Shown here: positions 34,270 to 55,922 of the stretch, piece after piece
Layout: the number at the start of each line of letters is the position of its first letter
Numbering within the stretch: the first letter of the stretch is position 1
Assembly: GCF_000265205.3 (NCBI RefSeq)
Contig: NC_018000.1
Coordinates: 1,860,001 to 1,924,000 of the forward strand
Direction: 5' to 3'
Source of the DNA: Sinorhizobium fredii USDA 257
Lineage (GTDB): Bacteria > Pseudomonadota > Alphaproteobacteria > Rhizobiales > Rhizobiaceae
Length of the DNA stretch: 64,000 nt
Notes under the pieces: generated by a model
Told to the model about the DNA's origin: nothing
Database searches by the model: none
Seen by the model: the letters and a program-made list of their open reading frames with translations, nothing else
Position numbers and translations under genes: made by a program

Positions 34270-35388
34270 TCACCCGTGCTGGATGTTCTCCATAATGGCT
34301 TCGTTGACGGCGGAGGATGCCTCCATCTGCGGCATGTGGCCGGCGCCCGGGATGATGCGCAGCTGGACATTGCCGGGCACTTCGGCTTGCTGCGGCACCG
34401 GGACGATCCCATCGCGCTCGCCCCAGATGAGCGTCACCGGGCACGTCAACGCCTGAAGCTGGTCGCCGATCGACTGCAGCTGGCCATTGTCGTCGGCAAT
34501 CGTGTCGGCGATCGCCGACAGCGCCTCCGGCACACCCTCGAGCCGCTTGAAGCGAAGCGTTCCCTCGACCATGTCGCTGGTGATCTTCGACGGATCGGCG
34601 AACAGCCGCTCCAATACGCCGAGCAGCGGGCGGCGGCGCTCCGCCGCAACGAAGTCGACGAGGAAATCCCGGCTGATCTGGCGGCTCAGCCCGATCGGGG
34701 CGATCAGCGTCAGCGAACCGACGCGCGAGGGCCGATTGGCGGCGATCGCCGCGGCGACAGCACCGCCGAAGGAGTGGGCGATGAGGTGAAGCTTGCCGGG
34801 CGCGACCGCTTCGACCGCCGCTTCCACGGCAGAGACGATCTTCGGGAAGACATCGCCGCCCGCGATCGGCGACGACGCGCCGTGTCCGGGCAGGTCGATG
34901 GCAACCACCCGCATGTTTTCGGCGAGTGCCGACTGGTTGAACAGCCATGTCGAAAGATCGCCGCCAAACCCGTGCAGCAGCACCACCGTCTCGTCGCCCT
35001 GCGGTCCAGCTTCGAGAACGTTGACGGCACCCCCATCAACAGCGATCGTTCGCGGCACGGGGACGCCGCCGTCGCCTTCGTCGCCTGCACCAAGCCGGTC
35101 GGCATAGCTTGCGATGAAGGCGTCGATCTCTTCCGACGTCGCCGCCGCCTCGGCGATCACCCCGGCCAGGGCACCGACCGGCGCCGTCGTTCCCTCTTTG
35201 AGGACGATGCGTCTCAGCGTTCCGGTGGCGGCGGCTTCGACGACATTGGTGACCTTGGTGGTTTCGATCTCCAGGATTTCCTGACCGCGCGTGACATGCT
35301 CGCCCTCGCCGACCATCCACTGGGTGATCTTGCCCTCGGTCATCGTCATTCCCCATTTGGGAACGGTGACTGCCTCGATTGACGACAT
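34270..35388 (-). CDS. Acetoin dehydrogenase-type E2: lipoyl domain plus alpha/beta hydrolase (AcoC-like), copy 1
   Basis: A 372-residue protein. Residues ~1-80 are a lipoyl domain with the lipoylation site in IETTKVTN (Lys near 44). A short linker leads to an alpha/beta hydrolase domain with VVLLHGFGGD, nucleophile AHSFGGA, acid IWGERDGIV and His in GAGHMPQ. This is the architecture of AcoC, the acetoin dehydrogenase acyltransferase. The last residues read ENIQHG, unlike copies 2 and 3 (ENIQRSSGI), because the repeat boundary falls here. It starts 6 bp after E1 beta. No E3 gene is nearby. Confidence 0.88.
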   Translation of the reverse strand: MSSIEAVTVPKWGMTMTEGKITQWMVGEGEHVTRGQEILEIETTKVTNVVEAAATGTLRRIVLKEGTTAPVGALAGVIAEAAATSEEIDAFIASYADRLGAGDEGDGGVPVPRTIAVDGGAVNVLEAGPQGDETVVLLHGFGGDLSTWLFNQSALAENMRVVAIDLPGHGASSPIAGGDVFPKIVSAVEAAVEAVAPGKLHLIAHSFGGAVAAAIAANRPSRVGSLTLIAPIGLSRQISRDFLVDFVAAERRRPLLGVLERLFADPSKITSDMVEGTLRFKRLEGVPEALSAIADTIADDNGQLQSIGDQLQALTCPVTLIWGERDGIVPVPQQAEVPGNVQLRIIPGAGHMPQMEASSAVNEAIMENIQHG

Positions 35389-35394
35389 CGTGGT

Positions 35395-36402
35395 CTACCT
35401 CTTGATAATGGAGGTCGCGGCCTTCACCACGGCATCGGCCGACGGGATATAGGCGTCCTCGAGATTGGGGGCGTAGGGAACCGGCGCATGCGGCGCCGTC
35501 ACCAGCTTGATCGGCGCCTTCAGCGCATCGAAGCATTTGTCGGCAAGCAGCGCCGAGATATCGGTGGCGACACTGCAGCGCGGATTGGCTTCGTCGACGA
35601 TGACGACACGCCCGATCGTCTCGGTGAACTCCAGCAGCGTGTCTTCGTCGAGCGGCGAGGTGGTGCGCGGGTCGATGATGCAGGCGGAGATGCCCTCGGC
35701 CGCCAGCTTGCGGGCGGCCTCTTCGGCGACCTGGACCATGCGGCCGATGGCGATGATCAGCACGTCCTTGCCGTCACGCGCCACCCGCGCCTCGCCGAAG
35801 GGGATCGTGTAGGCGCCGTCAGGCACTTCCCCCACCGTGTCATAGAGCATCTTGTGCTCGAGGAAGATCACCGGATCGTCGTCGCGGATCGCCTGCAGCA
35901 ACAGGCCTTTGGCGTCATAGGGGGTCGACGGTATGACCACCTTGAGACCGGGAATGTGGGTGAAGATCGGATAGAGCGCCTGGGTGTGCTGCGACCCGGA
36001 GCGGCTGCCGGCGCCATAGGTGGCGCGGATGACGAGCGGCGTCTTGGCGCGGCCGCCGAACATGAAGCGGAACTTCGCCGCCTGGTTCATGATCTGATCG
36101 AGGCAGACGCCGGCGAAATCGACGAACATGATTTCCGCGATCGGGCGCAGGCCGGTCAGCGCTGCCCCCGCCGCCGCGCCGATGAACGCCGCCTCGCTGA
36201 TCGGCGTGTCGCGAATGCGCTCCGGCCCGAAGGCGTCGAGCAGCCCGCGGGTGACGCCAAACGGACCACCCCAGGCATCCTTCACCCCATTGGCGCCGGC
36301 GCCGCCGGTCAGATCCTCGCCCATCATGATGACGCGCGGGTCGCGGCCCATCTCGAAGTGAAGGGCTTCGTTCAGGGCCTGCCGAAATGATTTCTGTGCC
36401 AT
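35395..36402 (-). CDS. TPP-dependent dehydrogenase E1 beta (AcoB-like), copy 1
   Basis: A 335-residue transketolase-like beta subunit: RQALNEALHFEMGRDPRVIM and GEDLTGG at the N terminus, GAAAGAALTGLRPIAEIMF near residue 75, and the C-terminal transketolase domain with IDPRTTSPLDEDTLLE. It pairs with E1 alpha to decarboxylate or cleave a 2-oxo acid, ketol or diketone and reductively acylate the lipoyl E2. All three copies in the window encode the same protein. It starts 12 bp after E1 alpha. Confidence 0.9.
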   Translation of the reverse strand: MAQKSFRQALNEALHFEMGRDPRVIMMGEDLTGGAGANGVKDAWGGPFGVTRGLLDAFGPERIRDTPISEAAFIGAAAGAALTGLRPIAEIMFVDFAGVCLDQIMNQAAKFRFMFGGRAKTPLVIRATYGAGSRSGSQHTQALYPIFTHIPGLKVVIPSTPYDAKGLLLQAIRDDDPVIFLEHKMLYDTVGEVPDGAYTIPFGEARVARDGKDVLIIAIGRMVQVAEEAARKLAAEGISACIIDPRTTSPLDEDTLLEFTETIGRVVIVDEANPRCSVATDISALLADKCFDALKAPIKLVTAPHAPVPYAPNLEDAYIPSADAVVKAATSIIKR

Positions 36403-36414
36403 CGTCGCGGCTCC

Positions 36415-37393
36415 TTACAAATACTTCACGTAAACATCGGTGGTGAGCGCGGCGAGCGGTGGGAACGGCGCCGCTCTGGCCGCACTGACGGCACGGTCGA
36501 TCTCGGCTTCGACCGCCGCGTCGACGGCATCGAGCTCTGCCATCTCGACCAGCGACACCTCCTTGACGCGTTTGCGGAAATTGCTGAGGCAATCGCGCTC
36601 GCGACGCATCGCCGCCTTCTCTTCGGGGGTGCGGTAGGTGTCCGGGTCACCGCTGTAGTGGCCGTAATAGCGCGGCACATGCACGTGCAGCATCGTCGGG
36701 CCGCCGCCCGCCCGGGCGCGCTCCACCGCCTCGCCGGCCGCGGCATAGACGCTGAAGACATCGGTGCCGTCGACCTCGATGGCGGGGATGTCGTAGCTTT
36801 CGGCGCGGCGGGTGAAGCTGCCGGCCGATACATACGCGTTCGCCGTCGCCTCGCCGAAGCCGTTGTCCTCGATGACGAAGATGATCGGCAGCATCCAGAT
36901 CTTGGCGAGGTTGAAACTTTCCGACATCACCCCTTCGTTCATGGCGCCGTCGCCGGCAAAGGCGACCGCCACCTGCCCGGTCCCGAGCAGCTTGGCGCTC
37001 AACGCCGCGCCGCAGGTGATCGGCGCTCCGGCCGCGACGATGCCGTTGGCACCCAGCATCCCCTTGCGAAGATCGGCAATGTGTTGCGATCCGCCCTTGC
37101 CGCCGCAGGTGCCGCTGGCACGGCCGAACAGCTCGGCCATCATGCCGTCGATGTCGACACCCTTGGCGATCGAGTGGCCGTGACCGCGGTGCGTCGAGGA
37201 AATGTAGTCGTCGTCGCGAAGCTGCAGGCAGACGCCGACCGCACTTGCCTCCTGCCCGGCATAGAGGTGGGTGTTGCCGGGGAATGTCGCCCGTCCCCAT
37301 TTCCTGCATCACCCGCTCCTCGAACCGGCGGATCGTCCGCATGGTCCGATAGACGTTGATGAGCTGCTCATGTGATAGCTGCAAAGCAGACAT
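36415..37393 (-). pseudogene. E1 alpha (AcoA-like), a-type, copy 1, frameshifted
   Basis: Would encode ~325 residues with the TPP motif GDGAMNEG...EDN. One extra G in the run at 37279-37282 breaks the frame just after EMGTGDIP. The intact b-type copy (54945-55922) shows the correct frame. This a-type has GGSQHIADLRKG where the b-type has GGSMHIADLRKG, and the N terminus is LSHEQLINVY rather than FSREELVNVY. The ATG at 37393 follows GAGGGAC. It lies 95 bp after the permease gene. A sequencing error is the likeliest cause of the break. Confidence 0.85.
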
Positions 37394-37488
37394 TTGTCCC
37401 TCACTGACATTTCGCGGTTCGGCGACTCGTTTTACGAAGCGAATTTCCGCTACCGGCATGCATGTGGCTGCGGTTGCCTTCGTTGCCG

Positions 37489-38536
37489 TCAGGCCCTTGT
37501 TTTGCGCGAACGCCTGTACTGATCGATGACGACGGCGGCGACGATGATCATTCCCTTGATGATCTCCTGGTAATAGGAGCCGATCTTGAGGAAGGTGAAG
37601 CCTGAGGTGATGACGCCGAGAATGATTGTGCCTATCACCGTGCCAGTGATGCGACCGACGCCGCCGGCAAGCGAGGTGCCGCCAATCACCGCGGCCGCGA
37701 TGGCATCGAGCTCATAGGCAACACCCATAGTGGGCTGGGCGGAGGCCGCACGCGCCGCGGTCACTACTCCGGCAAGGCCGGAAAGCAGGCCTGCGATTGC
37801 ATAGACCTTGATGAGATGCGAGCCGATATCAATGCCCGAGACTCGCGCGGCCTGCGGATTGGCGCCGACCGCATAGGTGAACTTGCCGTAACGCGTATAG
37901 CGCAGAGCGATATGCGAGATGATCGCAACGGCAATGAAGATAAGTACTGGCAGCGGCAAGGGGAAGCCCAAGATGAAAAAGCTCTTGCCGAGCCACGTAA
38001 AGTCGGGATTCAGCAGCCCGATAGGCTGACCAAGTGTGTACCACTTGGCAACGCCGCGGGCGCATACCATCATTCCTAAAGTGGCGATGAAAGGCGGAAT
38101 GTTTGTCTTGGCGATTATCAAGCCATTGATCAGACCGGCAAGCAAGCCAACCAAGAGCCCTGCTAGAATTGGCCAGATCGGAAACAGGTCCGTCAGGGCA
38201 GGATAAAAGGGCGCGCACGTCTATCGAGCTTTGAGCAAGAGAAGCCGCCACCATGGCAGCGAGACCAACCACGGAGCCCGACGAGAGATCGATACCACTC
38301 GTGATAATCACCTGCGTTACGCCAACGGCAAGAATACCGATGACGGAGACCTGAAGAATAATGATCGACAGCCGCTGCTGGTTGCCGAGGAATGAACTTC
38401 CAACAAAAATCCAGCCAAGGAGCTCGAACATGAGCGCGATACCGACGAGCACCACGGCCGTCGACATTTCGTTCCCAAGCTTTCTTTTCGCTGCCGGCTT
38501 TTGTGCCACGGCCGTGGCTCCAGAGGGCGTAGTCAT
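37489..38536 (-). pseudogene. Sugar ABC transporter permease (RbsC-type), copy 1, frameshifted
   Basis: Equals the intact 348-residue gene at 46756-47802 except for one extra base in the A run at 38204-38207. The two halves are in different frames: MTTPSGATAVAQKPAAKRKL to the middle, then GLLAGLINGLIIAKTN to the end. A membrane protein of the BPD_transp_2 family that moves monosaccharides or inositols. It lies between the binding-protein gene and E1 alpha. Confidence 0.85.
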
Positions 38537-38665
38537 TGCGAAGGAACCTCCGCCTTAAGAGTTGTTGGAGTTAGCTTTTGCATTTTGGTTAGCCGTCCAC
38601 CTTGCATTTGGCCAAACTCGTCTGGCCGGATGTGCCGCCGTTTGCGGCACATCCGTGGTCAGCGA

Positions 38666-39604
38666 TCAGTTCTTGCTGAGGTAGGTGTCGACGTTAGCCG
38701 CGTTCACCAGTTCAAACGGAATCCAAACCGGAGATTCGACTTTCTCGCCCTTGGCAAGTTTAATGGCGGCATCGACCGAACCGGCGCCCTGCCCCACCGC
38801 GTCCTGGAAGACGGTGGCGTCGAGATCGCCGCTCTTCACATAATGCATCGCCTCCTTGGTGGCGTCGATGCCGGCCACGATGACATCTTTCATCTCCCAA
38901 CCGGCCGCCTTGAGCGAGTTCATGGCGCCCAGTGCCATGTCGTCGTTGTTGGCGACGACCGCGACCGGCTTGTAGCCCGCCGTGATCCAGTTGGTCATCA
39001 GGTCCTGCGCCTTCACCGGATCCCAGTTTGCCGTCTGCTCGTCAATGATCTTCATGAAGTTGCATTCCGGCGTCGCAACGACGTCGTGGACCGCCCGGCT
39101 ACGCTCTTCGGCGGCGTGTTGGGCGAGAACACCCTGAATGATCAGAATGCCGGCATCCTCGGTCTTGCCCTCTTCCTTCAAAACCCGGCAAACTTCTTTG
39201 GCTTGCAGCGTGCCGGCGTCGATCTCCTTCGAGCCGATGAAAGCCGCCTCCGAGCCGAGCTTGTCAAGGTCGCTCGGCGTGTTGTTGACATAGACCAGCG
39301 GAATGCCGGCGTCGGCCGCCATTTTCGTGATCGTCGGCGTCGCGGTGCTCTCCACGACGTTCACAATGATGGCGTCGACCTTGGCGGCAATGAAGTTCTG
39401 GATCTGCGACAGCTGTTTGTTGACATCGGCGTCAGCAAACTCGATCTGCAGAGGCTGGTTGGTCTTGGCGGCCTCGTCCTTCATCGCCTGAACCATCACC
39501 GCCAGGAACGTGTCGTTGGACGCAATGGTCACCCCGATATCGCCTGCATAAGCCGACGACGCCGCGAGAAACATCGCAGTTGTTCCAATAATCATTCGCT
39601 TCAT
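38666..39604 (-). CDS. Periplasmic sugar/inositol-binding protein (RbsB/MocB type), copy 1
   Basis: A 312-residue type I periplasmic binding protein. The signal peptide MKRMIIGTTAMFLAASSAYA is followed by GDIGVTIASNDTFLAVMVQA, VDAIIVNVVESTATPTITK, NNDDMALGAM and a C-terminal IPFELV. It resembles ribose, inositol and rhizopine (MocB) binding proteins. The ATG at 39604 has a GGGGAA box and begins the signal peptide; upstream extension is rejected. A LacI-type operator lies 82 bp upstream. Permease follows; no ATPase gene is adjacent. Confidence 0.9.
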   Translation of the reverse strand: MKRMIIGTTAMFLAASSAYAGDIGVTIASNDTFLAVMVQAMKDEAAKTNQPLQIEFADADVNKQLSQIQNFIAAKVDAIIVNVVESTATPTITKMAADAGIPLVYVNNTPSDLDKLGSEAAFIGSKEIDAGTLQAKEVCRVLKEEGKTEDAGILIIQGVLAQHAAEERSRAVHDVVATPECNFMKIIDEQTANWDPVKAQDLMTNWITAGYKPVAVVANNDDMALGAMNSLKAAGWEMKDVIVAGIDATKEAMHYVKSGDLDATVFQDAVGQGAGSVDAAIKLAKGEKVESPVWIPFELVNAANVDTYLSKN

Positions 39605-39685
39605 TTCTATTCCCCTTTTCTTGTTCGGGTGTCCGGCAGCACCCAAGATCATCCGGACCGTCCTCCTCCACTGAGGAACGGCTTA

Positions 39686-39699
39686 TGTTAACGATTACA
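39686..39699. promoter_or_regulatory. LacI-type operator upstream of binding-protein gene, copy 1
   Basis: TGTTAACGATTACA, a near-palindrome centred on CG, 82 bp before the binding-protein start and 3 bp from the stop of the epimerase gene. It belongs to the same site family as those at 24.3, 25.6, 27.1 and 41.8 kb. Confidence 0.6.
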
Positions 39700-39702
39700 T
39701 GG

Positions 39703-40561
39703 CTAGGTCGATTTTGGCGCGTTTGCTGCGTCGACCAACGGCTTGAGATATTCCATCGAGACCCGCGCTACCCAGTCCGGCTCGATGCCCCGCTGGTGGA
39801 AACCGCATTCCATCGACAGATAGCCGTCGAAGCCGGTTTCCTTCAGCGCGTCGATGAGCGCTGGGAAGTCGCCCCTGCCCATGCCCGGAGGCAGTCGGTT
39901 GTTGTCCGAAGCGTGGATATGGACCAGGTCCTTCCCCATCGCATATACATAATCGCTCATCACCTCCTTCTCGGTGATGACGTGATGGCTATCGAACATC
40001 AGCCGGACGTTCGGCTCACCGACGTCCTTCATCATGTCGATGGTGTTGTCACAGGTGTTGACGATGTTGCTGTCTTCCGGCGTTGGGCTCAATGACGATC
40101 TCGACGCCGAAGTCCTGCGCGAAGCGGGCGATTTCCCGGATCGCCTCGGCTGCCCAATCCCACGCCTGCCGGTACGTCGTGCCGAAGATAAACCACCCGG
40201 GCAGGCAGATCAGCCGCTTGCCGCCCCAATCGGCGGTGAGCTGTACCATTTCCTTGTAATGATCGATCGCCCACCGACGCTCTTCCGGAATCGGAGACGC
40301 GACATTGTTGCCAGGCCCGCCGCCGTGCGCTGGCAGCATGGCCGCCAGCTCCAATTCATAATCCTTGAGCATCTTGCCAAGGTCCTTGCGCCTTTGCGCG
40401 CTCAGAGTCGGCGGAAAGACATGCGGGCTGGCCGCGCCGATTTCGATCGCGTCATACCCGATCTTCTTGATCCGCTTGATGGTCTCCTCAAGCGTGTAGG
40501 CCGGCAACCAGGTCGGGTTACTCGCATAGGGCCAGGTGTGCATCGCAAGCTTGATCGTCAT
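39703..40561 (-). pseudogene. TIM-barrel sugar epimerase/isomerase (MocC/IolE type), copy 1, frameshifted
   Basis: Same as the intact 285-residue gene at 48969-49826 apart from one extra T at 40083-40084. The frame breaks just after EIVIEP, so the metal-site residues MFDSHH, HIHASD and SMECG fall in another frame. It lies 11 bp after the Gfo/Idh dehydrogenase gene. Probably a sequencing error rather than decay. Confidence 0.85.
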
Positions 40562-40572
40562 GGGACCACTCC

Positions 40573-41736
40573 TCAGGCAGCAGACTGCTTGATATCTTCC
40601 CAGGCGCCCTTCTCTCCCGAGACGAGAATGGCTTCGGCAATGCGCTCGATCTGCACGCCGTCCTTGAAGTCCGGCGAGGCCGGCTTATTCTCGGCAATCG
40701 CCTTGAGAAAGTTGTACCATTCGATTGATTTGATATCGATATAGCCCTGCCCCATGCCCGCAACCGGCCACAGCTTGTCGCCGAACGGCTGGTTCGGTCC
40801 GGAATAGATGGTGCGAAAGCCGAAAGCATCGGCCGGATCATCGGCAAAGGCTACGCGAAGCTCATTGAGGCGCTGGTAATCGAATGCAATCGAGCCTTTG
40901 GTGCCGTGGATCTCGAAGCCAAGCTGATTATGATGGCCCCAAGAATTGCGCGTCACTTCGATACTGCCGTGAGCCCCGCTGGCAAACTTGATCAGAGTGA
41001 GCGCAGTATCGTCGACGTCGACCTTGCCCTTTTCCGAGGAGGCAGCACCACTTTGGCCAAAGAACCGCCCGAGAGGCAATGGCCGTTCCGGAATGAAGGT
41101 CTTGACGATAGCGTTGACCGAGGCGAACTCGCCGACCAGAAGGCGCGCCGCATCGATCACATGCGTCCCGATATCCCCGATCGTACCTGAGCCGGCCTTG
41201 GCCTTGTTGAAGCGCCAAGACAGAGGTGCATTCGGGTCAGCGCCCCAATCCTGGAGGTAGTAGCCTCGGAAAGTGAGGATATCTCCAATGCGCCCCTCAT
41301 CAATCAGCCGCTTTGCCATCTGCAGAGCCGGCGTGTGACGATAGTTGTAGGAGACCATCGTCACTACGCCAGTCTCGCTTGCCGCAGCAAGCATCGCTTC
41401 CGCTTCCGCGACCGTCATCGACATCGGCTTTTCGCACATAACGTGCTTGCCGGCCTTTGCGGCTGCGATCGCGATCTCGGCGTGCGTGTCATTCGGAGTG
41501 CAGATATCGACGATATCGATATCGGGGCGCGAGACCACCTCGCGCCAATCGGTCGCATACTCAGCGAACCCATACTGTTTGGATGCCTTCTGCGCCATCT
41601 CCTCGTCGATATCGACGATGACCTTGCGTTCGATCTCGATCGGCGCACCGAAGAGAATTGGCACCACCGCTGTGGCAATCGAATGGGCCTTGCCCATGAA
41701 GCCTGTACCGATCAATGCAACGTTCAGCTTTTTCAC
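40573..41736 (-). CDS. Gfo/Idh/MocA dehydrogenase, levoglucosan-dehydrogenase/MocA-like, copy 1
   Basis: A 387-residue NAD(P)-dependent oxidoreductase: GTGFMGKAH loop at residue 10, CEKPMSM near 102, YNYRHTPALQMAK, QDWGADPNAPLSWRF near 168 and GDIGTHVIDAARLL. Length and the QDW...SWRF block resemble levoglucosan dehydrogenase and related anhydrosugar or inositol oxidoreductases. It is the first gene of a leftward unit with the epimerase, binding protein, permease and E1/E2. Two LacI-type operators lie upstream (41813-41858). The substrate is not established. Confidence 0.87.
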   Translation of the reverse strand: MKKLNVALIGTGFMGKAHSIATAVVPILFGAPIEIERKVIVDIDEEMAQKASKQYGFAEYATDWREVVSRPDIDIVDICTPNDTHAEIAIAAAKAGKHVMCEKPMSMTVAEAEAMLAAASETGVVTMVSYNYRHTPALQMAKRLIDEGRIGDILTFRGYYLQDWGADPNAPLSWRFNKAKAGSGTIGDIGTHVIDAARLLVGEFASVNAIVKTFIPERPLPLGRFFGQSGAASSEKGKVDVDDTALTLIKFASGAHGSIEVTRNSWGHHNQLGFEIHGTKGSIAFDYQRLNELRVAFADDPADAFGFRTIYSGPNQPFGDKLWPVAGMGQGYIDIKSIEWYNFLKAIAENKPASPDFKDGVQIERIAEAILVSGEKGAWEDIKQSAA

Positions 41737-41812
41737 CTTCGTCTCCCCATTCGAGCCTGCAGCGCGCCCCGGCTGCGGTAAATATTATCGACCAGGCCGC
41801 CGATTTTCCTTA

Positions 41813-41858
41813 TGTAAACGTGTACACCACAAAAAAACTTGCCGTGTCAACGATTACA
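41813..41858. promoter_or_regulatory. Pair of LacI-type operators upstream of the Gfo/Idh gene, copy 1
   Basis: TGTAAACGTGTACA (41813-41826) and TGTCAACGATTACA (41845-41858), centres 32 bp apart. Both sequences are the same as the pair upstream of the first lacI gene. They sit in the ~300-bp divergent gap between the leftward dehydrogenase and the rightward receptor fragment. Confidence 0.62.
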
Positions 41859-42036
41859 TGATAGAAGGTTGGTACAAAGTTTCGGCGAGATCCCAATCCG
41901 GAGGGAACCGAAACGGAGGAGGAAAGTAACCAAAGGGTCGCCCTTGAGATCTTCGTCTGAGACGATTCCTCAGTCGGTCCTACTGCTTGAGGGAAGGCAG
42001 CGCACAGCGCTTTTGTGCGGAATGGGGAGGAAGTGA

Positions 42037-42240
42037 ATGCTTCAACAACATCGCATTGGCCTTGGCGGCCGCGTCGCAGTCTTCGTTGTAGTGTCCCTTT
42101 TGTTGCTGGGCGGGTTCGTAAACCTTCAAGGGACGATAGGGATTGTGACCCACGAGCTCGTTAGAATGAGCGAGATGAGGACACAACTAGCCGAAGCAAA
42201 GCTGTCAGCTTTCAAACATTACCTGAACTTTTCGCGTTGA
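42037..42240 (+). pseudogene. N-terminal fragment of a chemoreceptor or sensor protein, copy 1
   Basis: A 67-residue frame with a GGAGGAAG ribosome-binding site. A short basic N terminus and a membrane helix (VAVFVVVSLLLLGGFV) are followed by a start of helical periplasmic sequence, then a stop. This is how methyl-accepting chemotaxis proteins or histidine kinases begin; everything after is missing. It is divergent from the sugar operon, so the lost receptor may have sensed the same compound. Confidence 0.5.
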
Positions 42241-42275
42241 CATCCAGCGTCGCGACAGCTGCGATGATTGAGCGA

Positions 42276-42322
42276 TGTAATCGTTTGTCAAGGCCAGGAA
42301 ACGATTAATGTGTACGTTAACA
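42276..42322. promoter_or_regulatory. Two LacI-type half-matched operators with no gene attached, copy 1
   Basis: TGTGTACGTTAACA (42309-42322) fits the operator pattern on the reverse strand. TGTAATCGTTTGTC (42276-42289) is an imperfect match with one good half. The spacing is similar to the other pairs. Neither adjoins an intact gene start, which suggests that a regulated gene was deleted here. Confidence 0.4.
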
Positions 42323-42694
42323 GCAAGCGCCGGCTGTGAAGCCTGGTACTTCGCTCGAATATGTTATCGATGAGCGCGGAACCTGTTGTCCACCCGATTT
42401 GAAAGATCTCGTTTGACGAGGAGAACCGAGGGCTTGGAAAGATGTTGGCCGATCGGTTGAGTGCCGAGAACGTCGAACTGCAAGAGACTGGGACTGGTCT
42501 GAGATCACACGAAAACGGTCTCAGGCGGGGCTTTAGCTTAGATTCAAACGATGAGTTTTTGAAAGACAAGAGTCGCTGTCACGTTGCAAGGTCATGAGCA
42601 AGGATCCCACAAAGTTGGGCGGATGCTCAGCATTTAAGCTGCCCGAGGCTTTTGAGGCTGTGTCGACTTGCGGCTAGCTCATCAACACACCCAC
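42323..42694. other. Non-coding gap in repeat copy 1
   Basis: About 370 bp between the orphan operators and the SDR-B gene with no supported gene. Short frames on either strand show no recognised domain. The same gap is present in copy 2 (51587-51957). Confidence 0.4.
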
Positions 42695-43447
42695 TCATCC
42701 CGCAGTGGCTGCCACCATCAATGCTTAGCATGCTGCCCGTGGCAAAATCTGCCTCCGTGGTGACAAAGAGGACGAACTTGGCAATCTCGTCCGCACTGGC
42801 GAACCGCTTCAGGGGAACCTGTGCGACCGTGTTCTCCCGAATCTCGGCGGTACCGCCAAACCACTCCAGTTCGGCCTTCATCATGGGCGTCTCCACCGGG
42901 CCAGGGCAAACGCAATTCAGCCTGACTTCGGGCGCGAGTTCAAGGGCGAGCGCCTTCATCAGGCCTACCAGCCCGGCCTTGGACGCGCAGTAGTGGGCAA
43001 AGTTCGGCATGCCTTTGACGGAAAGGTTGGAGGCGATGGCCACAATGCTGCCCTGCCCTCGCTCTCGCATTCTGAGTGCACAATCACGTATCACGTAAAA
43101 GGCCCCTGACAGATTGACGTCAATGTGCTGCCGCCATAGTTCAGGCGTCAGATCCTCGATTGCCGCTGGGGTTACAATGCCCGCGGCGTGGATCAGGTAA
43201 TCGATACCGTCAAGTCTTTCCCAAGCTGCACCGACTGCCGTTGTTGCACTCCCTTCGTCGGAAACGTCAGTGGCGATCGGGATGGTGCCGCAACCCAGAT
43301 CGCGCGCAATTTCCTCGAGGAGACCCACCCGACGGCCGGCTATCGCTACCTTGACACCGCAACTCGCCAGTTGACGAGCACAGGCCAAACCAATGCCCGA
43401 CGTCGCGCCAGTTACGAGCGCCGTTTTCCCCTCCAGGTGTTTTTCAT
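42695..43447 (-). pseudogene. SDR-B, copy 1, frameshifted at both ends
   Basis: Identical to the intact 250-residue SDR at 51958-52710 except for two indels. A T run at 43440-43444 is one base short, which displaces the ATG, and an extra C at 42709 changes the C terminus after LSIDGG and carries the frame on to 42627. The central SDR motifs (VTGATSGIGLACA, YCASKAGLVGL) are intact. The consensus ribosome-binding site GGAGGTGA lies just before the true ATG. Confidence 0.8.
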
Positions 43448-45669: not shown

Positions 45670-45681
45670 CGTCGCGGCTCC

Positions 45682-47802: not shown

Positions 47803-47931
47803 TGCGAAGGAACCTCCGCCTTAAGAGTTGTTGGAGTTAGCTTTTGCATTTTGGTTAGCCGTCCACCTTGCATTTGGCCAAACTCGTCTGGCCGGATGTG
47901 CCGCCGTTTGCGGCACATCCGTGGTCAGCGA

Positions 47932-48870
47932 TCAGTTCTTGCTGAGGTAGGTGTCGACGTTAGCCGCGTTCACCAGTTCAAACGGAATCCAAACCGGAGA
48001 TTCGACTTTCTCGCCCTTGGCAAGTTTAATGGCGGCATCGACCGAACCGGCGCCCTGCCCCACCGCGTCCTGGAAGACGGTGGCGTCGAGATCGCCGCTC
48101 TTCACATAATGCATCGCCTCCTTGGTGGCGTCGATGCCGGCCACGATGACATCTTTCATCTCCCAACCGGCCGCCTTGAGCGAGTTCATGGCGCCCAGTG
48201 CCATGTCGTCGTTGTTGGCGACGACCGCGACCGGCTTGTAGCCCGCCGTGATCCAGTTGGTCATCAGGTCCTGCGCCTTCACCGGATCCCAGTTTGCCGT
48301 CTGCTCGTCAATGATCTTCATGAAGTTGCATTCCGGCGTCGCAACGACGTCGTGGACCGCCCGGCTACGCTCTTCGGCGGCGTGTTGGGCGAGAACACCC
48401 TGAATGATCAGAATGCCGGCATCCTCGGTCTTGCCCTCTTCCTTCAAAACCCGGCAAACTTCTTTGGCTTGCAGCGTGCCGGCGTCGATCTCCTTCGAGC
48501 CGATGAAAGCCGCCTCCGAGCCGAGCTTGTCAAGGTCGCTCGGCGTGTTGTTGACATAGACCAGCGGAATGCCGGCGTCGGCCGCCATTTTCGTGATCGT
48601 CGGCGTCGCGGTGCTCTCCACGACGTTCACAATGATGGCGTCGACCTTGGCGGCAATGAAGTTCTGGATCTGCGACAGCTGTTTGTTGACATCGGCGTCA
48701 GCAAACTCGATCTGCAGAGGCTGGTTGGTCTTGGCGGCCTCGTCCTTCATCGCCTGAACCATCACCGCCAGGAACGTGTCGTTGGACGCAATGGTCACCC
48801 CGATATCGCCTGCATAAGCCGACGACGCCGCGAGAAACATCGCAGTTGTTCCAATAATCATTCGCTTCAT
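47932..48870 (-). CDS. Periplasmic sugar/inositol-binding protein (RbsB/MocB type), copy 2
   Basis: A 312-residue protein identical to copy 1 (38666-39604), with the same signal peptide, GGGGAA ribosome-binding site and upstream LacI-type operator. Confidence 0.9.
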   Translation of the reverse strand: MKRMIIGTTAMFLAASSAYAGDIGVTIASNDTFLAVMVQAMKDEAAKTNQPLQIEFADADVNKQLSQIQNFIAAKVDAIIVNVVESTATPTITKMAADAGIPLVYVNNTPSDLDKLGSEAAFIGSKEIDAGTLQAKEVCRVLKEEGKTEDAGILIIQGVLAQHAAEERSRAVHDVVATPECNFMKIIDEQTANWDPVKAQDLMTNWITAGYKPVAVVANNDDMALGAMNSLKAAGWEMKDVIVAGIDATKEAMHYVKSGDLDATVFQDAVGQGAGSVDAAIKLAKGEKVESPVWIPFELVNAANVDTYLSKN

Positions 48871-48951
48871 TTCTATTCCCCTTTTCTTGTTCGGGTGTCC
48901 GGCAGCACCCAAGATCATCCGGACCGTCCTCCTCCACTGAGGAACGGCTTA

Positions 48952-48965
48952 TGTTAACGATTACA
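48952..48965. promoter_or_regulatory. LacI-type operator upstream of binding-protein gene, copy 2
   Basis: TGTTAACGATTACA, the copy-2 equivalent of 39686-39699. Confidence 0.6.
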
Positions 48966-48968
48966 TGG

Positions 48969-49826
48969 CTAGGTCGATTTTGGCGCGTTTGCTGCGTCGA
49001 CCAACGGCTTGAGATATTCCATCGAGACCCGCGCTACCCAGTCCGGCTCGATGCCCCGCTGGTGGAAACCGCATTCCATCGACAGATAGCCGTCGAAGCC
49101 GGTTTCCTTCAGCGCGTCGATGAGCGCTGGGAAGTCGCCCCTGCCCATGCCCGGAGGCAGTCGGTTGTTGTCCGAAGCGTGGATATGGACCAGGTCCTTC
49201 CCCATCGCATATACATAATCGCTCATCACCTCCTTCTCGGTGATGACGTGATGGCTATCGAACATCAGCCGGACGTTCGGCTCACCGACGTCCTTCATCA
49301 TGTCGATGGTGTTGTCACAGGTGTTGACGATGTTGCTGTCTTCCGGCGTGGGCTCAATGACGATCTCGACGCCGAAGTCCTGCGCGAAGCGGGCGATTTC
49401 CCGGATCGCCTCGGCTGCCCAATCCCACGCCTGCCGGTACGTCGTGCCGAAGATAAACCACCCGGGCAGGCAGATCAGCCGCTTGCCGCCCCAATCGGCG
49501 GTGAGCTGTACCATTTCCTTGTAATGATCGATCGCCCACCGACGCTCTTCCGGAATCGGAGACGCGACATTGTTGCCAGGCCCGCCGCCGTGCGCTGGCA
49601 GCATGGCCGCCAGCTCCAATTCATAATCCTTGAGCATCTTGCCAAGGTCCTTGCGCCTTTGCGCGCTCAGAGTCGGCGGAAAGACATGCGGGCTGGCCGC
49701 GCCGATTTCGATCGCGTCATACCCGATCTTCTTGATCCGCTTGATGGTCTCCTCAAGCGTGTAGGCCGGCAACCAGGTCGGGTTACTCGCATAGGGCCAG
49801 GTGTGCATCGCAAGCTTGATCGTCAT
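48969..49826 (-). CDS. TIM-barrel sugar epimerase/isomerase (MocC/IolE type), copy 2
   Basis: A 285-residue xylose-isomerase-like TIM barrel, the intact version of 39703-40561. Metal ligands are expected in EIVIEP, LMFDSHH, VHIHASDNNR and LSMECGFH. Relatives include inosose dehydratase IolE, the rhizopine protein MocC, and epimerases or 3-keto-sugar lyases that act after a Gfo/Idh dehydrogenase. It lies 11 bp after that dehydrogenase gene, so the two probably act in sequence on the same sugar. No signal peptide; cytoplasmic. Confidence 0.85.
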   Translation of the reverse strand: MTIKLAMHTWPYASNPTWLPAYTLEETIKRIKKIGYDAIEIGAASPHVFPPTLSAQRRKDLGKMLKDYELELAAMLPAHGGGPGNNVASPIPEERRWAIDHYKEMVQLTADWGGKRLICLPGWFIFGTTYRQAWDWAAEAIREIARFAQDFGVEIVIEPTPEDSNIVNTCDNTIDMMKDVGEPNVRLMFDSHHVITEKEVMSDYVYAMGKDLVHIHASDNNRLPPGMGRGDFPALIDALKETGFDGYLSMECGFHQRGIEPDWVARVSMEYLKPLVDAANAPKST

Positions 49827-49837
49827 GGGACCACTCC

Positions 49838-51001
49838 TCAGGCAGCAGACTGCTTGATATCTTCCCAGGCGCCCTTCTCTCCCGAGACGAGAATGGCTTC
49901 GGCAATGCGCTCGATCTGCACGCCGTCCTTGAAGTCCGGCGAGGCCGGCTTATTCTCGGCAATCGCCTTGAGAAAGTTGTACCATTCGATTGATTTGATA
50001 TCGATATAGCCCTGCCCCATGCCCGCAACCGGCCACAGCTTGTCGCCGAACGGCTGGTTCGGTCCGGAATAGATGGTGCGAAAGCCGAAAGCATCGGCCG
50101 GATCATCGGCAAAGGCTACGCGAAGCTCATTGAGGCGCTGGTAATCGAATGCAATCGAGCCTTTGGTGCCGTGGATCTCGAAGCCAAGCTGATTATGATG
50201 GCCCCAAGAATTGCGCGTCACTTCGATACTGCCGTGAGCCCCGCTGGCAAACTTGATCAGAGTGAGCGCAGTATCGTCGACGTCGACCTTGCCCTTTTCC
50301 GAGGAGGCAGCACCACTTTGGCCAAAGAACCGCCCGAGAGGCAATGGCCGTTCCGGAATGAAGGTCTTGACGATAGCGTTGACCGAGGCGAACTCGCCGA
50401 CCAGAAGGCGCGCCGCATCGATCACATGCGTCCCGATATCCCCGATCGTACCTGAGCCGGCCTTGGCCTTGTTGAAGCGCCAAGACAGAGGTGCATTCGG
50501 GTCAGCGCCCCAATCCTGGAGGTAGTAGCCTCGGAAAGTGAGGATATCTCCAATGCGCCCCTCATCAATCAGCCGCTTTGCCATCTGCAGAGCCGGCGTG
50601 TGACGATAGTTGTAGGAGACCATCGTCACTACGCCAGTCTCGCTTGCCGCAGCAAGCATCGCTTCCGCTTCCGCGACCGTCATCGACATCGGCTTTTCGC
50701 ACATAACGTGCTTGCCGGCCTTTGCGGCTGCGATCGCGATCTCGGCGTGCGTGTCATTCGGAGTGCAGATATCGACGATATCGATATCGGGGCGCGAGAC
50801 CACCTCGCGCCAATCGGTCGCATACTCAGCGAACCCATACTGTTTGGATGCCTTCTGCGCCATCTCCTCGTCGATATCGACGATGACCTTGCGTTCGATC
50901 TCGATCGGCGCACCGAAGAGAATTGGCACCACCGCTGTGGCAATCGAATGGGCCTTGCCCATGAAGCCTGTACCGATCAATGCAACGTTCAGCTTTTTCA
51001 C
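49838..51001 (-). CDS. Gfo/Idh/MocA dehydrogenase, levoglucosan-dehydrogenase/MocA-like, copy 2
   Basis: A 387-residue protein identical to copy 1 (40573-41736), with the same GTGFMGKAH and CEKPM motifs and the same operator pair upstream. Confidence 0.87.
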   Translation of the reverse strand: MKKLNVALIGTGFMGKAHSIATAVVPILFGAPIEIERKVIVDIDEEMAQKASKQYGFAEYATDWREVVSRPDIDIVDICTPNDTHAEIAIAAAKAGKHVMCEKPMSMTVAEAEAMLAAASETGVVTMVSYNYRHTPALQMAKRLIDEGRIGDILTFRGYYLQDWGADPNAPLSWRFNKAKAGSGTIGDIGTHVIDAARLLVGEFASVNAIVKTFIPERPLPLGRFFGQSGAASSEKGKVDVDDTALTLIKFASGAHGSIEVTRNSWGHHNQLGFEIHGTKGSIAFDYQRLNELRVAFADDPADAFGFRTIYSGPNQPFGDKLWPVAGMGQGYIDIKSIEWYNFLKAIAENKPASPDFKDGVQIERIAEAILVSGEKGAWEDIKQSAA

Positions 51002-51077
51002 CTTCGTCTCCCCATTCGAGCCTGCAGCGCGCCCCGGCTGCGGTAAATATTATCGACCAGGCCGCCGATTTTCCTTA

Positions 51078-51122
51078 TGTAAACGTGTACACCACAAAAA
51101 AATTGCCGTGTCAACGATTACA
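51078..51122. promoter_or_regulatory. Pair of LacI-type operators upstream of the Gfo/Idh gene, copy 2
   Basis: TGTAAACGTGTACA (51078-51091) and TGTCAACGATTACA (51109-51122). One base is missing between them relative to copy 1 (C after the A run), so the centres are 31 bp apart. Confidence 0.6.
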
Positions 51123-51300
51123 TGATAGAAGGTTGGTACAAAGTTTCGGCGAGATCCCAATCCGGAGGGAACCGAAACGGAGGAGGAAAGTAACCAAAGG
51201 GTCGCCCTTGAGATCTTCGTCTGAGACGATTCCTCAGTCGGTCCTACTGCTTGAGGGAAGGCAGCGCACAGCGCTTTTGTGCGGAATGGGGAGGAAGTGA

Positions 51301-51504
51301 ATGCTTCAACAACATCGCATTGGCCTTGGCGGCCGCGTCGCAGTCTTCGTTGTAGTGTCCCTTTTGTTGCTGGGCGGGTTCGTAAACCTTCAAGGGACGA
51401 TAGGGATTGTGACCCACGAGCTCGTTAGAATGAGCGAGATGAGGACACAACTAGCCGAAGCAAAGCTGTCAGCTTTCAAACATTACCTGAACTTTTCGCG
51501 TTGA
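51301..51504 (+). pseudogene. N-terminal fragment of a chemoreceptor or sensor protein, copy 2
   Basis: Identical to 42037-42240: 67 residues, one membrane helix, then a stop. Confidence 0.5.
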
Positions 51505-51539
51505 CATCCAGCGTCGCGACAGCTGCGATGATTGAGCGA

Positions 51540-51586
51540 TGTAATCGTTTGTCAAGGCCAGGAAACGATTAATGTGTACGTTAACA
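51540..51586. promoter_or_regulatory. Two LacI-type operator-like sites with no gene attached, copy 2
   Basis: Copy-2 equivalents of 42276-42322. The ~370 bp that follow (51587-51957) contain no supported gene. Confidence 0.4.
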
Positions 51587-51957
51587 GCAAGCGCCGGCTG
51601 TGAAGCCTGGTACTTCGCTCGAATATGTTATCGATGAGCGCGGAACCTGTTGTCCACCCGATTTGAAAGATCTCGTTTGACGAGGAGAACCGAGGGCTTG
51701 GAAAGATGTTGGCCGATCGGTTGAGTGCCGAGAACGTCGAACTGCAAGAGACTGGGACTGGTCTGAGATCACACGAAAACGGTCTCAGGCGGGGCTTTAG
51801 CTTAGATTCAAACGATGAGTTTTTGAAAGCAAGAGTCGCTGTCACGTTGCAAGGTCATGAGCAAGGATCCCACAAAGTTGGGCGGATGCTCAGCATTTAA
51901 GCTGCCCGAGGCTTTTGAGGCTGTGTCGACTTGCGGCTAGCTCATCAACACACCCAC

Positions 51958-52710
51958 TCATCCCGCAGTGGTGCCACCATCAATGCTTAGCATGCTGCCC
52001 GTGGCAAAATCTGCCTCCGTGGTGACAAAGAGGACGAACTTGGCAATCTCGTCCGCACTGGCGAACCGCTTCAGGGGAACCTGTGCGACCGTGTTCTCCC
52101 GAATCTCGGCGGTACCGCCAAACCACTCCAGTTCGGCCTTCATCATGGGCGTCTCCACCGGGCCAGGGCAAACGCAATTCAGCCTGACTTCGGGCGCGAG
52201 TTCAAGGGCGAGCGCCTTCATCAGGCCTACCAGCCCGGCCTTGGACGCGCAGTAGTGGGCAAAGTTCGGCATGCCTTTGACGGAAAGGTTGGAGGCGATG
52301 GCCACAATGCTGCCCTGCCCTCGCTCTCGCATTCTGAGTGCACAATCACGTATCACGTAAAAGGCCCCTGACAGATTGACGTCAATGTGCTGCCGCCATA
52401 GTTCAGGCGTCAGATCCTCGATTGCCGCTGGGGTTACAATGCCCGCGGCGTGGATCAGGTAATCGATACCGTCAAGTCTTTCCCAAGCTGCACCGACTGC
52501 CGTTGTTGCACTCCCTTCGTCGGAAACGTCAGTGGCGATCGGGATGGTGCCGCAACCCAGATCGCGCGCAATTTCCTCGAGGAGACCCACCCGACGGCCG
52601 GCTATCGCTACCTTGACACCGCAACTCGCCAGTTGACGAGCACAGGCCAAACCAATGCCCGACGTCGCGCCAGTTACGAGCGCCGTTTTCCCCTCCAGGT
52701 GTTTTTTCAT
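51958..52710 (-). CDS. SDR downstream of the b-type dehydrogenase module (SDR-B), copy 2
   Basis: A 250-residue classical SDR: VTGATSGIGLACARQL, IHAAGIVTPA in place of NNAG, SNLSVKG, and YCASKAGLVGL. It ends MLSIDGGTTAG. A consensus GGAGGTGA ribosome-binding site lies just before the ATG (MKKHLEGKT). It follows the E2 gene (52791-53918) in the leftward operon that starts with the polyamine-type transporter at 61.9 kb. This is the intact reference for the frameshifted copy at 42695-43447. Confidence 0.88.
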   Translation of the reverse strand: MKKHLEGKTALVTGATSGIGLACARQLASCGVKVAIAGRRVGLLEEIARDLGCGTIPIATDVSDEGSATTAVGAAWERLDGIDYLIHAAGIVTPAAIEDLTPELWRQHIDVNLSGAFYVIRDCALRMRERGQGSIVAIASNLSVKGMPNFAHYCASKAGLVGLMKALALELAPEVRLNCVCPGPVETPMMKAELEWFGGTAEIRENTVAQVPLKRFASADEIAKFVLFVTTEADFATGSMLSIDGGTTAG

Positions 52711-52790
52711 TGGTCACCTCCCTCATTTCAAAGCTGGCCTATCCCTCGACCGCTTTGACTTGAATGACGGCCAGCGGAGGGAACCCACAA

Positions 52791-53918
52791 TCAGATTCCT
52801 GACGATCGCTGGATGTTCTCCATAATGGCTTCGTTGACGGCGGAGGATGCCTCCATCTGCGGCATGTGGCCGGCGCCCGGGATGATGCGCAGCTGGACAT
52901 TGCCGGGCACTTCGGCTTGCTGCGGCACCGGGACGATCCCATCGCGCTCGCCCCAGATGAGCGTCACCGGGCACGTCAACGCCTGAAGCTGGTCGCCGAT
53001 CGACTGCAGCTGGCCATTGTCGTCGGCAATCGTGTCGGCGATCGCCGACAGCGCCTCCGGCACACCCTCGAGCCGCTTGAAGCGAAGCGTTCCCTCGACC
53101 ATGTCGCTGGTGATCTTCGACGGATCGGCGAACAGCCGCTCCAATACGCCGAGCAGCGGGCGGCGGCGCTCCGCCGCAACGAAGTCGACGAGGAAATCCC
53201 GGCTGATCTGGCGGCTCAGCCCGATCGGGGCGATCAGCGTCAGCGAACCGACGCGCGAGGGCCGATTGGCGGCGATCGCCGCGGCGACAGCACCGCCGAA
53301 GGAGTGGGCGATGAGGTGAAGCTTGCCGGGCGCGACCGCTTCGACCGCCGCTTCCACGGCAGAGACGATCTTCGGGAAGACATCGCCGCCCGCGATCGGC
53401 GACGACGCGCCGTGTCCGGGCAGGTCGATGGCAACCACCCGCATGTTTTCGGCGAGTGCCGACTGGTTGAACAGCCATGTCGAAAGATCGCCGCCAAACC
53501 CGTGCAGCAGCACCACCGTCTCGTCGCCCTGCGGTCCAGCTTCGAGAACGTTGACGGCACCCCCATCAACAGCGATCGTTCGCGGCACGGGGACGCCGCC
53601 GTCGCCTTCGTCGCCTGCACCAAGCCGGTCGGCATAGCTTGCGATGAAGGCGTCGATCTCTTCCGACGTCGCCGCCGCCTCGGCGATCACCCCGGCCAGG
53701 GCACCGACCGGCGCCGTCGTTCCCTCTTTGAGGACGATGCGTCTCAGCGTTCCGGTGGCGGCGGCTTCGACGACATTGGTGACCTTGGTGGTTTCGATCT
53801 CCAGGATTTCCTGACCGCGCGTGACATGCTCGCCCTCGCCGACCATCCACTGGGTGATCTTGCCCTCGGTCATCGTCATTCCCCATTTGGGAACGGTGAC
53901 TGCCTCGATTGACGACAT
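52791..53918 (-). CDS. E2 lipoyl/alpha-beta hydrolase protein (AcoC-like), copy 3
   Basis: A 375-residue protein identical to copy 2. It lies 6 bp after E1 beta and is followed by SDR-B. This copy belongs to the intact leftward operon from the TetR-side promoter. Confidence 0.88.
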   Translation of the reverse strand: MSSIEAVTVPKWGMTMTEGKITQWMVGEGEHVTRGQEILEIETTKVTNVVEAAATGTLRRIVLKEGTTAPVGALAGVIAEAAATSEEIDAFIASYADRLGAGDEGDGGVPVPRTIAVDGGAVNVLEAGPQGDETVVLLHGFGGDLSTWLFNQSALAENMRVVAIDLPGHGASSPIAGGDVFPKIVSAVEAAVEAVAPGKLHLIAHSFGGAVAAAIAANRPSRVGSLTLIAPIGLSRQISRDFLVDFVAAERRRPLLGVLERLFADPSKITSDMVEGTLRFKRLEGVPEALSAIADTIADDNGQLQSIGDQLQALTCPVTLIWGERDGIVPVPQQAEVPGNVQLRIIPGAGHMPQMEASSAVNEAIMENIQRSSGI

Positions 53919-55610
53919 CGTGGTCTACCTCTTGATAATGGAGGTCGCGGCCTTCACCACGGCATCGGCCGACGGGATATAGGCGTCCTCGAGATTGGGG
54001 GCGTAGGGAACCGGCGCATGCGGCGCCGTCACCAGCTTGATCGGCGCCTTCAGCGCATCGAAGCATTTGTCGGCAAGCAGCGCCGAGATATCGGTGGCGA
54101 CACTGCAGCGCGGATTGGCTTCGTCGACGATGACGACACGCCCGATCGTCTCGGTGAACTCCAGCAGCGTGTCTTCGTCGAGCGGCGAGGTGGTGCGCGG
54201 GTCGATGATGCAGGCGGAGATGCCCTCGGCCGCCAGCTTGCGGGCGGCCTCTTCGGCGACCTGGACCATGCGGCCGATGGCGATGATCAGCACGTCCTTG
54301 CCGTCACGCGCCACCCGCGCCTCGCCGAAGGGGATCGTGTAGGCGCCGTCAGGCACTTCCCCCACCGTGTCATAGAGCATCTTGTGCTCGAGGAAGATCA
54401 CCGGATCGTCGTCGCGGATCGCCTGCAGCAACAGGCCTTTGGCGTCATAGGGGGTCGACGGTATGACCACCTTGAGACCGGGAATGTGGGTGAAGATCGG
54501 ATAGAGCGCCTGGGTGTGCTGCGACCCGGAGCGGCTGCCGGCGCCATAGGTGGCGCGGATGACGAGCGGCGTCTTGGCGCGGCCGCCGAACATGAAGCGG
54601 AACTTCGCCGCCTGGTTCATGATCTGATCGAGGCAGACGCCGGCGAAATCGACGAACATGATTTCCGCGATCGGGCGCAGGCCGGTCAGCGCTGCCCCCG
54701 CCGCCGCGCCGATGAACGCCGCCTCGCTGATCGGCGTGTCGCGAATGCGCTCCGGCCCGAAGGCGTCGAGCAGCCCGCGGGTGACGCCAAACGGACCACC
54801 CCAGGCATCCTTCACCCCATTGGCGCCGGCGCCGCCGGTCAGATCCTCGCCCATCATGATGACGCGCGGGTCGCGGCCCATCTCGAAGTGAAGGGCTTCG
54901 TTCAGGGCCTGCCGAAATGATTTCTGTGCCATCGTCGCGGCTCCTTACAAATACTTCACGTAAACATCGGTGGTGAGCGCGGCGAGCGGTGGGAACGGCG
55001 CCGCTCTGGCCGCACTGACGGCACGGTCGATCTCGGCTTCGACCGCCGCGTCGACGGCATCGAGCTCTGCCATCTCGACCAGCGACACCTCCTTGACGCG
55101 TTTGCGGAAATTGCTGAGGCAATCGCGCTCGCGACGCATCGCCGCCTTCTCTTCGGGGGTGCGGTAGGTGTCCGGGTCACCGCTGTAGTGGCCGTAATAG
55201 CGCGGCACATGCACGTGCAGCATCGTCGGGCCGCCGCCCGCCCGGGCGCGCTCCACCGCCTCGCCGGCCGCGGCATAGACGCTGAAGACATCGGTGCCGT
55301 CGACCTCGATGGCGGGGATGTCGTAGCTTTCGGCGCGGCGGGTGAAGCTGCCGGCCGATACATACGCGTTCGCCGTCGCCTCGCCGAAGCCGTTGTCCTC
55401 GATGACGAAGATGATCGGCAGCATCCAGATCTTGGCGAGGTTGAAACTTTCCGACATCACCCCTTCGTTCATGGCGCCGTCGCCGGCAAAGGCGACCGCC
55501 ACCTGCCCGGTCCCGAGCAGCTTGGCGCTCAACGCCGCGCCGCAGGTGATCGGCGCTCCGGCCGCGACGATGCCGTTGGCACCCAGCATCCCCTTGCGAA
55601 GATCGGCAAT
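52808..55610. repeat. Tandem repeat, partial copy 3 (E2, E1 beta and most of E1 alpha)
   Basis: Matches copies 1 and 2 over about 2.8 kb. At 55611 the sequence begins to differ in short patches (55611-55616, 55812-55822, 55887-55918), and it diverges completely beyond the E1 alpha start. Confidence 0.88.
53925..54932 (-). CDS. E1 beta (AcoB-like), copy 3
   Basis: A 335-residue protein identical to copies 1 and 2. It starts 12 bp after the intact E1 alpha. Confidence 0.9.
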   Translation of the reverse strand: MAQKSFRQALNEALHFEMGRDPRVIMMGEDLTGGAGANGVKDAWGGPFGVTRGLLDAFGPERIRDTPISEAAFIGAAAGAALTGLRPIAEIMFVDFAGVCLDQIMNQAAKFRFMFGGRAKTPLVIRATYGAGSRSGSQHTQALYPIFTHIPGLKVVIPSTPYDAKGLLLQAIRDDDPVIFLEHKMLYDTVGEVPDGAYTIPFGEARVARDGKDVLIIAIGRMVQVAEEAARKLAAEGISACIIDPRTTSPLDEDTLLEFTETIGRVVIVDEANPRCSVATDISALLADKCFDALKAPIKLVTAPHAPVPYAPNLEDAYIPSADAVVKAATSIIKR

Positions 55611-55922
55611 ATGCATCGATCCGCCCTTGCCGCCGCAGGTGCCGCTGGCACGGCCGAACAGCTCGGCCATCATGCCGTCGATGTCGACACCCTTGGCGAT
55701 CGAGTGGCCGTGACCGCGGTGCGTCGAGGAAATGTAGTCGTCGTCGCGAAGCTGCAGGCAGACGCCGACCGCACTTGCCTCCTGCCCGGCATAGAGGTGG
55801 GTGTTGCCGGGGATATCACCGGTCCCCATTTCCTGCATCACCCGCTCCTCGAACCGGCGGATCGTCCGCATGGTCCGATAGACGTTGACGAGTTCCTCGC
55901 GAGAGAACTGTAAAGCCGACAT
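54945..55922 (-). CDS. TPP-dependent dehydrogenase E1 alpha (AcoA-like), b-type, intact
   Basis: A 325-residue alpha subunit. It has RTIRRFEERVMQEMGTGDIPG, STHRGHGHSIAKG near residue 68, GGSMHIADLRKG near 100, and the TPP motif AFAGDGAMNEG with IEDNGFGEAT. With E1 beta and E2 it should cleave a ketol, diketone or 2-oxo acid and pass the acyl group to lipoate. It is the only E1 alpha in the window without a frameshift, and the conserved GGSMH motif is present only here. An alpha/beta hydrolase gene lies 191 bp upstream. Confidence 0.92.
   Translation of the reverse strand: MSALQFSREELVNVYRTMRTIRRFEERVMQEMGTGDIPGNTHLYAGQEASAVGVCLQLRDDDYISSTHRGHGHSIAKGVDIDGMMAELFGRASGTCGGKGGSMHIADLRKGMLGANGIVAAGAPITCGAALSAKLLGTGQVAVAFAGDGAMNEGVMSESFNLAKIWMLPIIFVIEDNGFGEATANAYVSAGSFTRRAESYDIPAIEVDGTDVFSVYAAAGEAVERARAGGGPTMLHVHVPRYYGHYSGDPDTYRTPEEKAAMRRERDCLSNFRKRVKEVSLVEMAELDAVDAAVEAEIDRAVSAARAAPFPPLAALTTDVYVKYL

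Follow-up and report, generated by a model that had tools for sequence, protein, structure and literature searches.

A tandem catabolic array in Sinorhizobium fredii USDA 257 and the probable role of recombination between its 3.1-kb acetoin dehydrogenase-type modules

The window analyzed here, a stretch of 64,000 bases from S. fredii USDA 257 (contig NC_018000.1, positions 1,860,001 to 1,924,000), contained genes in the order F_L-A1-B1-A2-B2-A3-F_R, with the main genes on the minus strand (Table 1). A is a 3.1-kb AcoCBA-like module encoding E2, E1beta and E1alpha, and B is a 6.15-kb transport/dehydrogenase part. Self-comparison of the window aligned 43545-55923 with 34278-46661 at 99.78% identity over 12,386 columns, and 52808-55923 with 34278-37394 at 99.42%. 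The tandem repetition with constant offsets that had been noted in the original prediction was borne out by this comparison, the offsets being exactly 9267 and 9263 bases. Copies 1, 2 and 3 hereafter denote 34278-43544, 43545-52807 and 52808-55923, respectively. In the whole genome, no near-identical unit was found at a second site; other matches did not exceed 93% identity over 40 bases, or 72% where they were longer. The locus was not described in the titles of the literature matches listed.

Table 1. Features of the array and its flanks (positions in the window)
Feature	Position	Strand	Remarks
F_L	33445..34200	-	SDR adjoining A1 (Pfam adh_short_C2); same neighbor of A in relatives
Module A1	34278..37394	-	E2 34270-35388, E1beta 35395-36402, E1alpha
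B1	37395..43544	-	Permease, PF01261 protein, binding protein, Gfo/Idh/MocA dehydrogenase, SDR
Module A2	43545..46661	-	Hybrid: left flank shared with A3, right end and flank shared with A1
B2	46662..52807	-	
B2 permease	46756-47802	-	
B2 binding protein	47932-48918	-	
B2 PF01261 protein	48969-49826	-	
B2 Gfo/Idh/MocA dehydrogenase	49838-51001	-	
B2 SDR	51958-52710	-	
"Receptor fragment"	51250..51900	+	Name from the original prediction only; no intact gene seen here; partial DNA matches in some relatives
Module A3 (A')	52808..55923	-	E2 52791-53918, E1beta 53925-54932, E1alpha 54945-55922
Codon 103 of A3 E1alpha	55614..55616	-	Met; Gln at 37084-37086 and 46352-46354
F_R	56114..61951	-	Alpha/beta hydrolase, SDR, ABC permease, ATPase, binding protein

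Most of the gene names first given to the unit stood, with the exception that the "epimerase" is a PF01261 TIM-barrel protein, the dehydrogenase belongs to the Gfo/Idh/MocA family and the E2 is of the acetoin dehydrogenase type. The E2 carried lipoyl and alpha/beta-hydrolase domains (Pfam) and passed the NCBIfam acetoin dehydrogenase E2 model NF011457 (444 bits, cut-off 307). TPP-dependent E1 alpha and beta subunits were present (PF00676, PF02779 and PF02780), and the pyruvate dehydrogenase equivalog TIGR03182 was not reached (325 vs 394 bits). The module thus resembles the acetoin dehydrogenase operon acoABC in its E2 with the E1 pair alongside, but it occurs in two copies in two operons and has no E3 gene, and acetoin is only a putative substrate. 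The permease of B was of the sugar type. PMC10066097 describes a levoglucosan pathway of LgdA, LgdB1 and LgdC, which B resembles in having an ABC transporter alongside proteins of the Gfo/Idh/MocA and PF01261 families. While the Gfo/Idh/MocA enzyme looks similar to levoglucosan dehydrogenase, it fell below the cut-off of that family (NF052479, 561 vs 650 bits), and the identification of B as a levoglucosan operon was rejected on this ground. An extra base broke the E1alpha frame near 37279 in copy 1 and near 46242 in copy 2, whereas the frame was intact in copy 3; the permease and the PF01261 protein of B1 were both frame-broken.

The relatives compared were the best 80 of 222, and the nearest named ones at this locus were Sinorhizobium. 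The order A-B-A', where A' is the module adjoining F_R, was found in seven Sinorhizobium strains. In Rm41, MABNR56, CFNEI73, CCBAU 25509, GR64 and G001 it was accompanied by both flanks (F_L-A-B-A'-F_R), and in BR816 (G011) the order A-B-A was read for the modules alone, flanks aside. The homology between A and A' in these seven strains ended within 7 bases of the module ends of the window on both sides, and the F_R genes were the neighbors of A' in relatives as well. The original prediction had taken A3 for a partial third copy; this was rejected, as A3 ends like A' and adjoins F_R, just as in the relatives. Since the A' beside F_R belongs to the flank and most relatives with both modules show A-B-A', the array is, judged from gene order, one with just a single extra A-B, in which the 52808 junction already existed and A3 is the old A' module with an E1alpha 5' end of its own. 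The order A-B-A-B-A was seen in no relative compared, so that the duplication was observed once.

Other states of the locus were also found. CCGM7 had a single A (F_L-A-F_R), S24 had F_L-A-B only, without A', and NGR234 had A'-F_R followed by F_L-A-B (L123 15383-33114), so that A'-F_R lay on the other side of F_L-A-B. Two A modules in a different order, with parts of the B operon also present twice, occurred in Rhizobium sp. N324, Mim1 and R. sophoriradicis. B was variable: only part of its SDR was present in Rm41 and MABNR56, and none was found in CFNEI73. In strain N324, a related sugar operon was present twice besides the two A modules (L125 1-6126 and 25215-31340; 6126 bases, 99.94%), and in Agrobacterium sp. 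CGMCC 11546 the A' module lacked E2 (L127 15171-17254). Of 32 further Sinorhizobium genomes, G001, G011, G013 and G020 contained A at 92% identity or more, with two copies each, and G008 had fragments at contig ends. The family search, in which two candidates per genome were scored in a drawn sample, gave at least four of 297 genomes, the present one included. Plasmid records matching A numbered 20, 14 of them over at least 80% of A. The window is part of a single 6.48-Mb contig (G000:C1), although in relatives the matching records are those of plasmids, which may reflect replicon fusion or scaffolding; USDA257 is described in PMC12470103 as having one chromosome and one plasmid.

From this arrangement, A is predicted to serve the operon of F_L and B, and A' that of F_R. 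Both modules would cleave a predicted substrate, a ketol or diketone, with a product of the acetyl-CoA type. There would be two operons with one E1beta/E2 sequence and two E1alpha N-termini, through which the operons may remain distinct in specificity or expression.

The single A of CCGM7, which lies between F_L and F_R, was recombinant. When its letters were typed as A or A' against CFNEI73, positions 1-5 and 2807-2813 were A-type, whereas each of the 15 sites in 3028-3110 was A'-type; there was also one A'-type letter at 212, a small switch that may be due to conversion. By this pattern, the module is the residue of a deletion through crossing over between A and A', and it and the hybrid A2 of the window (Table 1) are apparently reciprocal products of one kind of exchange. 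As an A/A' recombinant is found in CCGM7 and the relatives have A-B-A', crossing over between A and A' would explain the step from A-B-A' to A-B-A-B-A'. The locus quite probably descends from F_L-A-B-A'-F_R, with A and A' as 3.1-kb direct repeats flanking an uptake/dehydrogenase operon, and the array would be the expected product of A/A' recombination, either in the cell or in the joining of reads. Homologous exchange between A and A', presumably RecA-dependent, would keep the two alike by non-reciprocal copying, conversion being read here from the pattern; unequal crossing over would duplicate A-B to give the sequence of the window, and looping out would delete A-B to give the CCGM7 state. 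What appeared to be an odd amplification is then a locus whose states can be counted (F_L-A-F_R and A-B-A', to which A-B-A-B-A' may be added) and are linked by one kind of exchange.

A and A' within a genome were 98.4-99.97% identical, with 1 to 50 of about 3100 sites differing in 13 genome pairs, which included two S. meliloti and three S. fredii by name. Agrobacterium CGMCC 11546 (A' without E2) and USDA 6670 were left out of this set, and a second Rm41 record (L130) was not counted. With strains of the same species set aside, the identity between A and A' exceeded that of either one to the nearest copy of another species in the set in all 13 pairs, although the margin was small in R. sophoriradicis (98.4 vs 97.7%). 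Strains of the same species were as close or closer (Rm41/MABNR56, 99.9%; CFNEI73/CCGM7, 99.3%). The core tree also joined the copies by genome in all 11 multi-copy genomes included, with a support of 0.68 for R. sophoriradicis. We infer that the near-identity of A and A' within genomes reflects concerted evolution by gene conversion. Homogenisation is not universal, as Agrobacterium CGMCC 11546 does not fit: its paralogues were 98.2% identical and one of them was 99.1% identical to an R. rhizogenes copy.

The remaining differences were concentrated at one end. In the window, copy 3 matched copies 1 and 2 up to about 55610 and carried 18 substitutions in the last 310 or so bases, the E1alpha 5' end. 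Over the 13 pairs, A and A' differed at 212 positions in the last 319 bases (E1alpha end), 30 in the first 319 (E2 end) and 68 in the 2478 bases between. CCBAU 25509, NGR234, BR816 and R. sophoriradicis had 26, 15, 11 and 39 differences, respectively, outside the E1alpha end. At residue 103, A had Gln in all 13 pairs, and nine of these, in both Sinorhizobium and Rhizobium, had Met in A'; the other four (BR816, CCBAU 25509, G001 and N324) had Gln in both copies. Gln was also read in four more copies on the A' side (R. ecuadorense, R634, R. rhizogenes and Agrobacterium CGMCC 11546), giving Met103 in nine of the 17 A'-side copies read. In BIHB 1217, Q103M was the sole amino-acid change among 11 changed codons compared. 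Leu6/Phe6 and His8/Arg8 were likewise position-specific in seven of nine Sinorhizobium pairs, and Gln30/Glu30 in seven of nine. Two draft records of USDA 6670 ending in A showed Met103 beside F_L (L042 near 273) and Lys (AAA) beside the SDR of B (L043 near 156). At face value this strain is against the rule of Gln in A and Met in A', but the link from flank to E1alpha end is unsafe here because of a 2.8-kb identical stretch in a draft.

In an alignment with human pyruvate dehydrogenase E1alpha, residue 103 falls on the Met of the GKGGSMH motif. Met103 was found in 66 of 67 more distant loci (L054-L120), one having no readable motif, and the nearer loci had mostly Gln. As a change from Gln to Met needs two or three base changes, it seems likelier that an old difference persisted or was restored than that it arose repeatedly. 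On the other hand, a tree of the E1alpha end (317 columns, support weak in places) grouped the copies by position in close species only and placed those of the window and of NGR234 by genome, which would speak against a simple old split of A and A'.

The end of the homogenised tract lay within 10 bases of codon 103 in seven of the ten pairs that differ there, namely the window, Rm41, MABNR56, CFNEI73, USDA 6670, BIHB 1217 and Mim1, the last of which had a single difference deeper inside; Rm41 and MABNR56 in this count are one species, and the USDA 6670 copies were paired by residue rather than by flank. Among the five pairs with Gln103 in both copies, the tract reached 3004 and 3073 in two. 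We favored selection as the cause, and tentatively propose that it guards the E1alpha N-terminus, chiefly residue 103, from conversion, so that E1beta/E2 would be shared between two E1alpha specificities; the full count of A'-side copies and the USDA 6670 records make this proposal slightly less likely. The divergent end may instead be an edge effect, as conversion tracts seldom reach the end of homology, and we regard this as possible at somewhat under an even chance. The differences do adjoin a homology end, and the grouping by genome of the window and NGR234 copies in the tree agrees with such an effect. However, the E2 end is equally near a homology end and had far fewer differences over the same length, and the E1alpha end exceeded it in 12 of the 13 pairs, R. 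sophoriradicis being the exception. A local barrier to exchange near codon 103 might conceivably also have produced the divergent end. The paired modules form a natural experiment, in which conversion erases paralogues and selection may keep a part of them, and the single residue 103 offers a direct test of the one against the other. If selection guards this residue, there would be two catabolic routes with one E1beta/E2 sequence and two E1alpha specificities.

Copies 1 and 2 differed by eight single-base indels and by no substitution. With polarity judged against up to nine relatives per site, seven of the eight were private to copy 1 (six insertions and one deletion) and one insertion was private to copy 2; for one copy-1 insertion no relative aligned, and a loss in copy 2 is equally possible. 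The load was seven in 9267 bases of copy 1 and one in 12,379 bases of copies 2 and 3 (Fisher P 0.025), an excess that suggests weak read support for copy 1. In the single-copy flanks, 25 proteins of relatives covering 22 window genes (matches below 60% identity were dropped) showed 20 genes in one frame, one split and one (RidA-like) with a partial match. The split gene, that of a sugar ABC ATPase (21440-22977), changed frame near 22876 when compared with S. chiapasense S24, probably by a sequencing error. Since mutation would have left substitutions too, sequencing or polishing error appears to fit the indel-only differences better, and the frameshifts would not mark pseudogenes. Decay of redundant copies was rejected as their source, as eight indels without a substitution are unlike mutation.

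Whether the cell holds a physical second copy of A-B is about evenly balanced. We give an even chance to the alternative that the cell has A-B-A' and that the joining of overlapping contigs, or of a repeat graph, put A-B into the assembly a second time, and the original prediction had rightly kept an assembly artefact open. Copies that differ by indels alone, nearly all private to one of them, look like one sequence read twice; A-B-A' is also the state of the relatives, and draft assemblies break inside A, as USDA 6670 shows. The same signature was found in R. leguminosarum BIHB 1217, in which the head of a circular plasmid record (NZ_CP022666.1, 1-13020) repeated its tail to the last base with four mismatches and 31 gaps (L128 26122-39138, L129 1-13020). 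This is an untrimmed end overlap of about 13 kb that mimics a tandem copy, and a second natural tandem in that strain (A-X-A-X-A) was dismissed as this overlap. Against an artefact, the array sits within a contig of 6,476,459 bases, away from its ends, and a genuine new duplication would be without substitutions too. Ambiguous mapping would also leave one real copy unpolished, and the CCGM7 deletion product shows such exchange in nature. It is improbable that selection for a higher dosage of the operon fixed a recent duplication: the absence of substitutions between copies 1 and 2 would make any duplication recent, but 3.1-kb repeats suffice for the structure to arise and selection is not needed. 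Assemblers easily duplicate loci of such build, of which the present array gives a warning.

Romero is said to have described, in 1991 and 1995, amplifiable regions (amplicons) of the R. etli symbiotic plasmid whose copies vary by homologous recombination, the repeats reportedly being reiterated nif and other sequences and the units much larger. The present locus is similar in that DNA lies between long near-identical direct repeats and that a deletion state through the same repeats exists (CCGM7, one strain), and differs in its repeats, which are catabolic operons, and in its unit of 9.3 kb. Santoyo in 2005 reportedly also described repeats of a rhizobium (R. etli) that undergo conversion and crossover; such events are here read from the sequence pattern, and, unlike in that system, one end of a natural repeat stays position-specific in several species. 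The self-comparison showed one further long repeat in the window, a 76% pair at 23160-25506, where two adjacent LacI-type regulators (23174-24160 and 24525-25511) with 76% DNA identity were found, both of which were present in several relatives.
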